The notes beneath the pieces were generated by a model. It saw only the letters and a program-made list of their open reading frames with translations. It did not search any database and was not told where the DNA came from. Position numbers and translations under genes: made by a program. From Bacteroidia bacterium (GTDB lineage: Bacteria > Bacteroidota > Bacteroidia > Flavobacteriales > Schleiferiaceae), in assembly GCA_030424545.1 (NCBI GenBank), contig JAUHWL010000001.1, positions 1-64,000 on the forward strand: DNA of 64,000 bases. Direction: 5' to 3'. Positions 16,244 to 54,439 of the stretch are shown piece by piece. Numbering within the stretch: the stretch's first letter is position 1; every line of letters starts with the position of its first letter.

Positions 16244-16285
16244 GTCTCCCCTCTCCCATAAGGAGAGGGGGCTAGGGGGTGAGGT
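16244..16285. repeat. GC-rich intergenic repeat, copy E (9-bp hairpin before the aldehyde dehydrogenase gene)
   Basis: Arms CCCCTCTCC (16248-16256) and GGAGAGGGG (16262-16270) with a 5-nt loop, followed by GCTAGGGGGTGAGG. It ends 6 bp before the ATG at 16292, so it would form part of the mRNA leader. This is one half-unit of the repeat family seen in full at 26173 and 26668. Confidence 0.75.
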
Positions 16286-25463: not shown

Positions 25464-26156
25464 ATGAAACTTGAAGCCTGCATAGAAACGCTTGCCGAAG
25501 CCAGAGTTGCCACCAAACACCATATCAACCGTGTTGAACTTTGCTCTGCTTTAGATTTGGGAGGGCTAACACCAACTTCAACCTTAATTAGTGCTTGTGC
25601 AGAAGTGATTGAAGTTCATGCAATGATTCGTCCGCGACCAGGGAACTTTGTGTACAACACCGAAGAAATGGCGCTGATGCTCACAGAGATTGCAGCCGCA
25701 AAAGAGGCTGGCGCAACAGGCGTGGTTTTCGGTTGCCTCACGCATGATTCTAAAATAGACTTTGCCATGGCGCAACATATTGTTTTAGCAGCACAAAAAT
25801 TAAACTTAAAAATCACCTTTCATCGCGCTTTTGATTTTCTTGAAGACCAAGAAGCAGGCTTAAAATTGCTTATCGATTTAGGAGTTGACCGTGTGCTTAC
25901 TTCCGGTGGAAAACCAACCGCCATAGAAGGCATTAAAAACATACAGAAGTTGGTTGAAATTGCAGAAGATAACATAGAAATAATGGCTGGAAGTGGCGTA
26001 AATGCTCACAATATCATAACGCTTAAAAATATAGATATACACGCGGCTCATTTTTCAATCCGCAAGAAAACAGGGGAAGTTTTGCCTTTGGGTATGGGCG
26101 AGAATTATGAAGTGGATGTCGAAAAAATGAATAAGATTTTGGAATTGTTGAAATGA
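25464..26156 (+). CDS. cutC: CutC family protein
   Basis: The preferred start is the ATG at 25464 (MKLEACIETLAEARVA). The TIM-barrel CutC family shows NRVELCSALDLGGLTPT, MIRPRPGNFVY, FHRAFDF, LTSGGKPTA and IMAGSGVN, all present here. CutC was named for copper handling, but its biochemical activity is not well established. In this operon, between GH20 and beta-mannosidase on the same strand, it could act on a glycan product. That is inference from context. Confidence 0.95.
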   Translation: MKLEACIETLAEARVATKHHINRVELCSALDLGGLTPTSTLISACAEVIEVHAMIRPRPGNFVYNTEEMALMLTEIAAAKEAGATGVVFGCLTHDSKIDFAMAQHIVLAAQKLNLKITFHRAFDFLEDQEAGLKLLIDLGVDRVLTSGGKPTAIEGIKNIQKLVEIAEDNIEIMAGSGVNAHNIITLKNIDIHAAHFSIRKKTGEVLPLGMGENYEVDVEKMNKILELLK

Positions 26157-26172
26157 AAAAAATTGGACTGGA

Positions 26173-26243
26173 CACACCCCTAACCCCGCTCAAGAGGGGA
26201 AGGCACGCGCGTAATTCCCCTCCTCGGAGGGGCAGGGGTGGGT
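26173..26243. repeat. GC-rich intergenic repeat, copy A (complete palindromic pair)
   Basis: Two inverted half-units, one beginning ACACACCCCTAACCCC and the other ending GGGGCAGGGGTGGGT, flank a short middle containing GGCACGCGCG. Each half has its own CCCC/GGGG hairpin, so the whole element is a double-hairpin palindrome. It lies between cutC and the DUF559 gene and bounds the left side of the DUF559 cassette. Confidence 0.8.
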
Positions 26244-26272
26244 TTTTACACGTGAACTAAAACTTCATAATA

Positions 26273-26653
26273 ATGCAAGACAATCGCAGAAAAATCATTC
26301 CATACAACCCTCGGTTAAAAGAGTTTGCGAGACAGCTCAGAAATAATTTAACCAAGGGCGAGATTTATCTTTGGTTGCAGTTGAAAGGCAAACAAATGCG
26401 CGGCTATGATTTTCATCGGCAAAAGCCAATCGATGAATTCATAGTCGATTTTTTCTGTCATGAATTAATGTTAGCCATAGAAGTGGATGGATATTCGCAC
26501 ACAATTCCAGAAGTGATTGACAAGGATGAAATTAAGGATAGAAGACTGCGAGAATTAGGCGTTTTTGCTATGCATATTGATGATGTAGAAATCTTCGAAA
26601 ACCTACCAAATGTGCTTCTTCAAATTGAAAAATATATCGATGATTATGAATAG
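26273..26653 (+). CDS. DUF559 domain protein, Vsr-like PD-(D/E)xK endonuclease
   Basis: A 126-residue single-domain protein. It shows the DUF559 core: LTKGEIYLWLQLKGKQM, FHRQKPIDEFIVDFF and LMLAIEVDGYSH. The D of VDFF and the E-x-D of IEVDG fit the metal-binding residues of Vsr/PD-(D/E)xK nucleases, so it looks intact. Activity in this family is not well defined. It has GC-rich repeats on both sides and interrupts an otherwise functional operon for N-glycan enzymes, which looks like a later insertion. Confidence 0.9.
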   Translation: MQDNRRKIIPYNPRLKEFARQLRNNLTKGEIYLWLQLKGKQMRGYDFHRQKPIDEFIVDFFCHELMLAIEVDGYSHTIPEVIDKDEIKDRRLRELGVFAMHIDDVEIFENLPNVLLQIEKYIDDYE

Positions 26654-26667
26654 GGAAACAATTTGTA

Positions 26668-26750
26668 ACACACCTCTGGCCCTCAGCCTCAGGCGGAGGG
26701 GAAGGCAAGCGCAGTTTCTCCTCTTGAGAGGGGATAAAGGCGTGTGTTTT
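26668..26750. repeat. GC-rich intergenic repeat, copy B (complete palindromic pair)
   Basis: Left half ACACACCTCTGGCCCTC with its own hairpin, then a middle GGCAAGCGCAGTTTC, then a right half with arms CTCTTGAGAG ending AAAGGCGTGTGT. The outer ACACAC/GTGTGT ends are inverted. It ends 3 bp before the beta-mannosidase ATG at 26754 and bounds the right side of the DUF559 cassette. Confidence 0.8.
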
Positions 26751-26753
26751 AAG

Positions 26754-28730
26754 ATGCTATTTTTCTTTCTATCGTTGTCTCTTTCCGCCCAATCAACCTC
26801 CACCTCCATCTCCCAAAACTGGCAATTCCGCCAAATAGGCACAAAAACGTGGCATCCCGCCACCGTGCCCGGCACAGTGCACACAGATCTTTTTGCAAAC
26901 AACCTCATTGGCGACCCGTTTAAAGACAACAACGAAATTGCGCAGCAATGGATTGAAAACGTAAACTGGGAATACAAAACCCGTTTTGATGTCAGCGAAG
27001 AGCAATTTCCGTTTAAACACCACGAATTGTATTTTAAAGGATTAGACACCTATGCTGAGGTTTTTCTGAATGGCGAAAAAATCCTTTCGGCCAACAACAT
27101 GTTTCGCAGCTGGCGGGTAGACGTTTCTGAACTTTTAAAGGCCGAAGAAAACGAGCTGCACATCGTGTTTACATCGCCCATTTTAAAGAACGATTCTGTG
27201 GCTAAAAACTATGTAAAACTGCCGGGCGGCAGCGATACCACAGAATTTCCGGTGGCGCCTTTTACCCGCAAAGCCGCCTACCATTTTGGCTGGGATTTCG
27301 CCCCACGCTTCGTAACCAGCGGCATTTGGAAAGATGTGGTTTTAGAAAGTTGGGATGAAATTGTTTTGCGCGATGTGGTGCATTCTATGATTTCGATTAA
27401 CGATACCGAGGCGGTTGTTAAATCAACGCTAAACGTAGAATCTGCGGTTGATGCAAACCTCAATTTTCTCGTCAACGGGCAAGTGTTTCACCACACTTTT
27501 ACTTCAGGAAAGAACAATCCATCGGTTCATTTTAAAATTAAAAACCCAAAACGTTGGTGGCCCAATGGCAGTGGCGAGCAGCATTTATATACCATCGAAA
27601 CCAAGCTAATTGATCCCGGAACTTATGACAAATATTTTCAAACGGATGTTCAGAAAATAGGGCTGCGCACCATCGAGTTGATCAATGAACCCGACAGCAT
27701 TGGCACTTCGTTTTATTTTAAGGTAAACGGGAAACCGATCTTTATGAAAGGCGCCAATTATGTGCCGCAAGATGTTTTTCTGCCGCGTGTACAAGATTCT
27801 CAATACGTGCATTTGTTAACGTTGGCGCGCGATGCAGGAATGAATATGCTGCGCGTTTGGGGCGGTGGTGTGTACGAAAAAGATATTTTTTACAACCTCT
27901 GCGATGAATACGGCATTCTGGTTTGGCAAGATTTTATGTTCGCCAATACGATGTATCCTAGCGACTCCGCATTTCGAGAAAATGTAACTCTTGAAGCAGC
28001 TGAGCAAATTGCACGACTAAGAAAGCACCCGAGCCTAGCACTATACTGCGGCAACAACGAAATTGAAGTCGCTTGGAAAAACTGGGGTTGGCAAAAGCAA
28101 TACGGCTATTCAATTCAAGATTCTTCAAGGCTTTGGGAAAATTATCATGACCTTTTTAGTATAGAATTACGCGCCTTAGTCGCTGTTATAGACGGGTACA
28201 CAACATACGTATCCACCTCCCCGCAAAGCAATTGGGGCACGCCAAAAAACTTTAATCACGGCAGTATGCACTATTGGGGCGTTTGGCATGGCAATGACGA
28301 TTTTAATGGCTTTAACCAAAACGTGGGTCGTTTTATGGTAGAATGGGGTTTTCAGAGTTACCCAGATTATAATTTGCTAGCCAATTACATTTCGCCAAAC
28401 CAGCTTTCGCTAGATTCTGAAGTGATGCAAAACCGACAGAAAAGCTATGTGGGCAACGACAAGATTTCAGAGTTCCTGAGTCAGTACGCCTTGTATGGCG
28501 GAAGCGCTTCAAATCTATCATTCAAAGATTTCGTGTACAATTCGCAATGGGTGCAAGCGTTGGGTTACGAGCAGGCTCTAAAAGCGCATTTGGCCAAACA
28601 ACCGCATTGCATGGGCACGCTTTTATGGCAGCTCAACGACTGCTGGCCCGGCCCAAGTTGGAGCATCATCAATTACAATGGCCAGCCGAAAAAGGCGTAT
28701 GAAAAAGTGATGCGTTTATATAAACCGTAA
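26754..28730 (+). CDS. GH2 beta-mannosidase (short form lacking the C-terminal domains)
   Basis: The ATG at 26754 is preferred because it starts a clean signal peptide (MLFFFLSLSLSAQ) directly after repeat B; the longer open frame reads through the repeat. Features are VPGTVHTDLFAN, FRSWRVDVS and FGWDFAPRF, with acid/base E436 (CGNNEIEVAW) and nucleophile E530 (MVEWGFQSY). It hydrolyses the beta-mannose of the N-glycan core. The 658 residues end just after the catalytic barrel, about 150-190 short of typical family members, and the next gene starts 27 bp later, so the C-terminal beta-sandwich domains are absent. No frameshift was seen. Confidence 0.93.
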   Translation: MLFFFLSLSLSAQSTSTSISQNWQFRQIGTKTWHPATVPGTVHTDLFANNLIGDPFKDNNEIAQQWIENVNWEYKTRFDVSEEQFPFKHHELYFKGLDTYAEVFLNGEKILSANNMFRSWRVDVSELLKAEENELHIVFTSPILKNDSVAKNYVKLPGGSDTTEFPVAPFTRKAAYHFGWDFAPRFVTSGIWKDVVLESWDEIVLRDVVHSMISINDTEAVVKSTLNVESAVDANLNFLVNGQVFHHTFTSGKNNPSVHFKIKNPKRWWPNGSGEQHLYTIETKLIDPGTYDKYFQTDVQKIGLRTIELINEPDSIGTSFYFKVNGKPIFMKGANYVPQDVFLPRVQDSQYVHLLTLARDAGMNMLRVWGGGVYEKDIFYNLCDEYGILVWQDFMFANTMYPSDSAFRENVTLEAAEQIARLRKHPSLALYCGNNEIEVAWKNWGWQKQYGYSIQDSSRLWENYHDLFSIELRALVAVIDGYTTYVSTSPQSNWGTPKNFNHGSMHYWGVWHGNDDFNGFNQNVGRFMVEWGFQSYPDYNLLANYISPNQLSLDSEVMQNRQKSYVGNDKISEFLSQYALYGGSASNLSFKDFVYNSQWVQALGYEQALKAHLAKQPHCMGTLLWQLNDCWPGPSWSIINYNGQPKKAYEKVMRLYKP

Positions 28731-45329: not shown

Positions 45330-45366
45330 TGCAGTTTTCCCCTTTGGAGGGGGTTAGGGGGAGGAT
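45330..45366. repeat. GC-rich intergenic repeat, copy G (half-unit)
   Basis: CGTGCAGTTTTCCCC followed by a short loop and GAGGGGGTTAGGGGG. It lies between the MFS gene and formimidoylglutamase genes. It resembles the right half of copies B and F, including the GCAGTTT middle. Confidence 0.7.
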
Positions 45367-49007: not shown

Positions 49008-49070
49008 AAACACACCCCTTTAATCCCCTCTTAAGAGGGGAAGTTACGCGCAGTTTCCCGCGCGCCTTTA
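49008..49070. repeat. GC-rich intergenic repeat, copy F
   Basis: Left half ACACACCCCTTTAATCCCC with arms CCCCTCTTAAGAGGGG, then a middle TTACGCGCAGTTTC that matches copy B. The right half is only partly preserved (CCGCGCGCCTTTATCCC). It lies between a hypothetical gene and the pepP gene. Confidence 0.7.
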
Positions 49071-54058: not shown

Positions 54059-54439
54059 ATGGCTGGCGTAAGATCATTTGAAGAATTAGAATGCTGGAAA
54101 GCAGCGAGAGAATTAAGGGTTTTTGCATCGAGAAAGGTGATTGAAAATTTCCCTTCAGATGAGCGGTACGCGTTGACAAGCCAACTAAGACGTTCTTCCA
54201 GATCTGTTTCAGATAATATTGCTGAAGGGTATGGACGGTTTCATTTTCAAGAAAACATTCAATTTTGCCGTATTGCAAGAGGAAGTTTGCACGAAAGTTT
54301 AAACCAAGTAATTACAGCCGAGGAAGAAGAATATATAGATGAAAATGTTGTGTTAGAATACCGCATCATTTTTAAAAAAACGGAAGCGATTTTGAACGGA
54401 TACATTAATTATTTAGCAGGAGCCAAAAGCGAAGGTTAA
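54059..54439 (+). CDS. Four-helix-bundle protein (S23/IVS-encoded family)
   Basis: A 126-residue helical protein of the family encoded in 23S rRNA intervening sequences and also found in intergenic positions. It opens VRSFEELECWKAARELRVF and contains LTSQLRRSSRSVSDNIAEGYGRF and ARGSLHESLNQVITAEEE. The family resembles the Avd accessory of diversity-generating retroelements, but there is no reverse transcriptase here. Function is unknown. It sits between sdhA and sdhB, flanked by AT-rich inverted repeats. Confidence 0.92.
   Translation: MAGVRSFEELECWKAARELRVFASRKVIENFPSDERYALTSQLRRSSRSVSDNIAEGYGRFHFQENIQFCRIARGSLHESLNQVITAEEEEYIDENVVLEYRIIFKKTEAILNGYINYLAGAKSEG

Follow-up and report, generated by a model that had tools for sequence, protein, structure and literature searches.

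The window analysed here is a stretch of 64,000 nucleotides from a Bacteroidia bacterium of the family Schleiferiaceae. In it, a short DUF559 gene lies between two GC-rich palindromic repeats, and this packet separates cutC from a beta-mannosidase gene while leaving both undamaged; reading of the sequence bore out the first-pass annotation on this arrangement. The features of the locus are as follows:

25464–26156, forward strand: cutC, the intact left neighbour; relatives have cutC and then the mannosidase gene directly.
26172–26245, no strand assigned: left repeat, assigned by sequence, fold and a triplex-type detector to two head-to-head PIT/BoxC-class units (third strand, loop, stem, loop, stem).
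26273–26653, forward strand: intact DUF559 gene (Pfam PF04480), 126 aa.
26668–26749, no strand assigned: right repeat, a more degenerate copy of the left one, ending 4 bp before the mannosidase ATG.
26754–28730, forward strand: beta-mannosidase gene, the intact right neighbour, with its ATG at 26754.

No transposase gene lies inside the unit. The mannosidase frame is free of stops through the right repeat (26610–26753), and its ORF, followed upstream, remains open as far as the end part of the DUF559 gene.

The window ORF scored 80.1 bits against the PF04480 profile (cut-off 20.6), which places it in DUF559, and the family's invariant E, D, E, D and H columns are all present in its protein. 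Compared by sequence, the DUF559 profile matched 3hrl, an endonuclease-like protein, and 3r3p, the homing endonuclease I-Bth0305I (4.5e-7). The AlphaFold model of the window protein (pLDDT 90.5) had 3hrl and 3r3p as its best matches, with Vsr (1vsr) lower. From these matches the window nuclease is predicted to be a Vsr-like PD-(D/E)XK enzyme related to I-Bth0305I. In a Caulobacter methyltransferase mutant, the DNA-damage response is due to the DUF559 protein VsrA (PMC12907096), which is consistent with DUF559 nuclease activity in cells. No Vsr-type cytosine methyltransferase gene adjoins the window gene, whose neighbours are instead cutC and the mannosidase gene.

The left repeat reads ACACACCCC-TAA-CCCCGCTC-AA-GAGGGG ... 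CCCCTC-CTCG-GAGGGG-CA-GGGGTGGG. Each unit is built of a pyrimidine third strand, a short loop, a pyrimidine arm, a loop and a purine arm, and two such units stand head-to-head. When folding was compared with shuffled sequences, the left repeat gave z scores of −2.5 on one strand and −4.5 on the other; the right repeat was less clear (−2.0 and −2.7). Between the left and right repeats, 30-nt arms match in inverted orientation (80%) and a stretch of 17 nt matches directly (94%). A plain terminator pair was considered for them and rejected. Half-copies of the repeat had also been reported at 16244, 45330 and 49008, and repeats do occur at these places:

16248–16285, no strand assigned: solo PIT unit of the GGGGGTGAGGT subtype, as beside another DUF559 gene of this genome (L001).
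45338–45366, no strand assigned: solo palindromic unit of another subtype.
About 49009–49040, no strand assigned: solo unit of the GGGGTGTG type, to which the window element also belongs.

They are single units of differing subtypes rather than half-copies, and only the third is of the GGGGTGTG type. Complete solo copies of that type were found elsewhere in the genome at two loci (L246 and L248).

Five DUF559 genes are present in this assembly. Reading of their flanks placed all five between G/C-run palindromes, each gene with a different subtype; the strict detector reported repeats beside L001, L002 and the window element and none beside L003 and L004, where the repeats are shorter or less regular. 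Among 56 genomes of the bacterial family, multiple matches to the window repeat type were confined to this genome (4) and G029 (5); the others had at most a single match, as did the reversed control. The DUF559 proteins L005 and L016, from this genome and G029 respectively, are sisters (57% identity, support 100/85). A k-mer comparison found no link between the window flanks and those of L016, the closest protein relative; the specific repeat pattern did link them. Outside this genome, the pattern CCCCTCN{2,14}GAGGGG gave small counts in the family, which alone are weak evidence. Across 72 loci, the correlation between protein identity and repeat similarity was weak (Spearman 0.26, permutation p ≤ 0.002, phylogeny ignored). 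Broken DUF559 genes in relatives, with a stop in L013 and a split frame in L024/L026, still have repeat-like palindromes alongside, as expected for decaying units.

The first-pass annotation had named frequent pairing of DUF559 genes with repeats on both sides, together with clean empty sites, as support for mobility, and presence of the gene at this operon position in all relatives as evidence against it. Empty sites were found for two elements of this genome. In the relative G021, the insert is missing and just a few bases separate cutC from the mannosidase gene; the order hexosaminidase, cutC, mannosidase is common to other relatives. Relatives lack the DUF559 gene at this position, and vertical inheritance at the cutC–mannosidase site was rejected. 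The other case is L002, which lies in frame inside the methionine synthase MetH: in a family search with the MetH protein, 28 relatives match to the left and right of the insert and have nothing notable in its place, the junction itself having been read in 14. Target-site duplications were not found; at the window unit, the empty-site relative is too diverged to read one.

Of the 198 genomes sampled from the phylum, 109 have DUF559. In 21 stretches from the family, the density of strict G/C-run hairpins was 3.57 per kb up to 200 bp from DUF559 domains and 0–0.12 per kb in bins covering distances of 0.2 to 10 kb; the layout is thus far beyond chance, and chance proximity of repeats and gene was rejected. 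At 80 named loci, drawn from Proteobacteria and other phyla, the density of purine/pyrimidine hairpins was 5.05 per kb within 150 bp, compared with about 0.05 per kb beyond 300 bp. Of 72 named loci, 57 had a hairpin no more than 300 bp away on one side or both, and 36 had one on each side (control windows, 5/144 and 0/144); this sample was drawn from a five-row alignment that includes YcjD and is biased towards YcjD-like proteins. With a more demanding detector, which required a third strand and a repeat within 250 bp of the gene, repeats stood on one side or both of 81 of 104 DUF559 genes and on both sides of 50 of 104, versus 10 of 328 and 0 of 328 controls. By set, the counts for at least one side and for both were 11 and 7 of 20 in the family, 20 and 14 of 24 in the phylum, and 50 and 29 of 60 among the named loci; about 22% of the DUF559 genes had no repeat by this detector. 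The expected association is therefore strong and specific. As for the ACACACCCC/GGGGTG repeat in particular, the prediction held for the class of repeat and not for its sequence, which varies, the ACACACCCC/GGGGTG type being only one subtype.

Repeat load was also related to DUF559 at the level of whole genomes. At least three copies of the pattern CCTCTCCN{1,12}GGAGAGG were present in 37 of the 84 genomes that match DUF559 strongly, versus 9 of the 114 that do not (Fisher p 4e-9), with copies beside DUF559 genes counted and genomes treated as independent of phylogeny; the reversed control of the pattern was near zero. Some genomes lacking DUF559 are rich in repeats (34 copies in G140), and some that bear DUF559 have few. 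A search of the open-access literature found no paper linking DUF559 to repeats; subscription papers and preprints were outside its scope, and the novelty of the pairing is provisional.

Other small-ORF families did not have this type of repeat. No PIT-type repeats were found at 29 loci of GxxExxY (PF13366) genes, which form a further family of small nucleases, or at 28 loci of 23S-IVP (PF05635) genes, and the CutC control gave one one-sided match in 26 loci. GxxExxY genes have a repeat of their own, CTCTGTG/CACAGAG (11 of 29 loci), with a density of 2.21 per kb close to the gene versus 0.14 per kb far from it; this repeat was near 1 of 104 DUF559 genes. It stands on one or both sides of GxxExxY genes (L205–L234; L212 in this genome), a parallel pairing of an ORF with its own repeat. 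The 23S-IVP gene of the window (54080–54397) has the AT-rich inverted repeats gttataggttataag and cgtataacctacaacgtataac on its two sides, and an inverted 11-mer was common to both flanks in 12 of 28 IVP loci (L277–L306) versus 0 of 28 controls.

The hairpins near DUF559 genes have a further strand. An adjacent mirror third strand, defined as at least 7 of 8 purine-motif triads, accompanied 158 of 190 of them (83%), versus 14% with shuffled flanks, which rules out generic hairpins; 142 of the 158 were perfect, and the third strand was nearly always on one side of the hairpin only. On sequence grounds, the repeats beside DUF559 genes can be given the intrastrand-triplex architecture of BoxC/PIT. 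To our knowledge, BoxC/PIT repeats, known since the 1990s, have been known only as orphan repeats without a mobility gene. BoxC, PIT and TMECO are names for one E. coli intrastrand-triplex motif, near which no mobility genes have been reported and whose loci are unstable; DUF559 is not mentioned in that account (PMC4666352). The likeness lies in a stem with purines alone in one arm and pyrimidines alone in the other, in the mirror third strand next to it and in the frequent head-to-head pairs. The letters differ: the window third strand is GGGGTGTG and that of E. coli is GGGTGAGGG, and the window repeats do not match the E. coli TMECO consensus. We place the window repeats in the BoxC/PIT class by architecture, the class being common to both and the sequence not.

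E. coli K-12 itself carries a DUF559 gene, ycjD. A degenerate BoxC unit overlaps the 3′ end of ycjD, and a further unit lies about 165 bp past that end. Of 5426 E. coli genomes, 3333 have the ycjD locus. In the genomes without it that were opened, the efflux operon eefRABCD (PMC12817139) follows fabI, and the ycjD-less locus was therefore rejected as a clean empty site. Presence or absence of BoxC varies between E. coli strains at three sites. At hrpB–mrcB (L235, L238), a BoxC pair of about 100 bp in K-12 is absent from strain KE50, with flanks that are nearly clean; the other two sites differ more widely and are not clean.

In addition to the MetH unit, in-frame DUF559 units were found in IleRS, LeuRS (two sites), RecG, HsdR and HsdM. 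Such units are frequently followed at once by a conserved motif, for example FTTRPDTIFG, TMPGWAGSSWYW, PHVLVMTATPIPRTL, VKGDVHDIGKN or GVIWHTQGSGKS. In a tree of 119 DUF559 proteins, which has few columns and many weak forks, grouping follows the host site for the units of MetH, LeuRS-a, RecG, IleRS and HsdM alike, and MetH units from different bacterial families fall together with support 99/88. The LeuRS-b units are not one group, and the HsdR units form two separate lineages, two of each being at the same HsdR site. At the site just before GVxWHTQGSGKS in HsdR, in-frame units of both lineages were seen (L006, L055, L257, L267). Recurrence at one site may also come from insertion-tolerant loops rather than from targeting. 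Pfam recognised no intein domain in the in-frame units and the window unit is intergenic, so neither fits the definition of an intron- or intein-borne endonuclease.

We favour, at a probability of roughly 0.65, the reading that the packet is a minimal homing-type mobile element of the form repeat, DUF559 gene, repeat, and that the solo repeats are its derivatives. The nuclease would nick or cut target DNA, and the unit would be copied into the break by recombination or repair in the manner of homing, with the folded repeats acting as its ends. Solo PIT/BoxC repeats would be derivatives lacking the nuclease, either mobilised in trans or remaining where the gene has been lost. Homing-type movement is placed first because the in-frame units group by host site. 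The same grouping fits less well with transposition of the REP/RAYT kind, in which the folded repeat would be the substrate and DUF559 a transposase excising and inserting repeats in cis and in trans, and not a homing enzyme by which its own gene is copied into intact alleles. That account is a serious competitor, if an unlikely one: it is favoured by the repeats found on both sides of 50 of 104 genes, by solo copies in the same genome, by the tracking of DUF559 subtype by repeat subtype in L005/L016 and by the E. coli BoxC presence/absence alleles, one of them nearly clean. Against this, two of the three E. coli alleles are not clean, and a PD-(D/E)XK fold is unlike that of any known single-strand transposase.

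Two further accounts give DUF559 no part in movement. Another enzyme, such as a Y1/RAYT transposase, might spread the repeats, with DUF559 as passive cargo caught between two of them. Y1_Tnp genes are indeed present, with three in this genome, located elsewhere than the window unit, and at least one in 20 of 56 family genomes. However, random passengers would vary, whereas PIT repeats are enriched at DUF559 and not at CutC, GxxExxY or IVP genes; each DUF559 gene of this genome has its own repeat subtype, and some DUF559-bearing genomes, for example G009 and G019, have no Y1 match. We consider such hitch-hiking improbable. Slightly less probable still is a house-keeping role, in which DUF559 would be a repair or structure-processing nuclease that controls unstable triplex repeats and for this reason lies near them. 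The Vsr-like fold, the Caulobacter DNA-damage response (PMC12907096) and the instability of BoxC loci (PMC4666352) all agree with such a role, but it leaves unexplained the in-frame repeat–DUF559–repeat units in MetH, LeuRS, IleRS, RecG and HsdR, as well as the empty sites, and it offers no reason for a repair gene to require a repeat on each side.

The favoured homing-type element resembles several known systems in part. With I-Bth0305I, of the EDxHD/Vsr-like homing type, it has in common the predicted catalytic fold, the sequence and recurrence at the same sites in conserved genes, but the DUF559 unit is outside any intron or recognised intein and is carried between PIT repeats. As in REP/RAYT systems, a nuclease gene is bounded by palindromic repeats that are also found solo in the genome. 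RAYT, however, is a Y1/HUH transposase, whereas DUF559 is of the PD-(D/E)XK type and its repeats are of triplex type, not simple hairpins. Vsr (1vsr) and Caulobacter VsrA, which has a DUF559 domain (PMC12907096), share the fold, but the window gene has no adjoining methyltransferase gene and its context is probably that of a mobile unit.

That DUF559 accompanies one class of repeat in widely differing bacteria, E. coli among them, suggests a tiny mobile element that has gone unrecognised. A wider proposal, which we hold tentatively and at somewhat less than even odds, is that these constitute a new class of mobile element, in which Vsr-like DUF559 nucleases recognise triplex-forming ends, move them in cis and in trans and are thereby the source of BoxC/PIT from E. 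coli to Bacteroidota. It may be one of several parallel systems of an ORF with its own repeat, such as GxxExxY with CTCTGTG and 23S-IVP with its own repeats. Pairing with DUF559 could explain the origin of the long-puzzling BoxC repeats, and if DUF559 does spread BoxC/PIT, the question is directly testable in E. coli K-12, which has both ycjD and BoxC. If true, the proposal would add a second nuclease fold to the few enzymes that spread small repeats, would account for foreign in-frame domains in essential genes such as MetH, LeuRS, IleRS and RecG, and would give a function to DUF559, a widespread family of unknown function.
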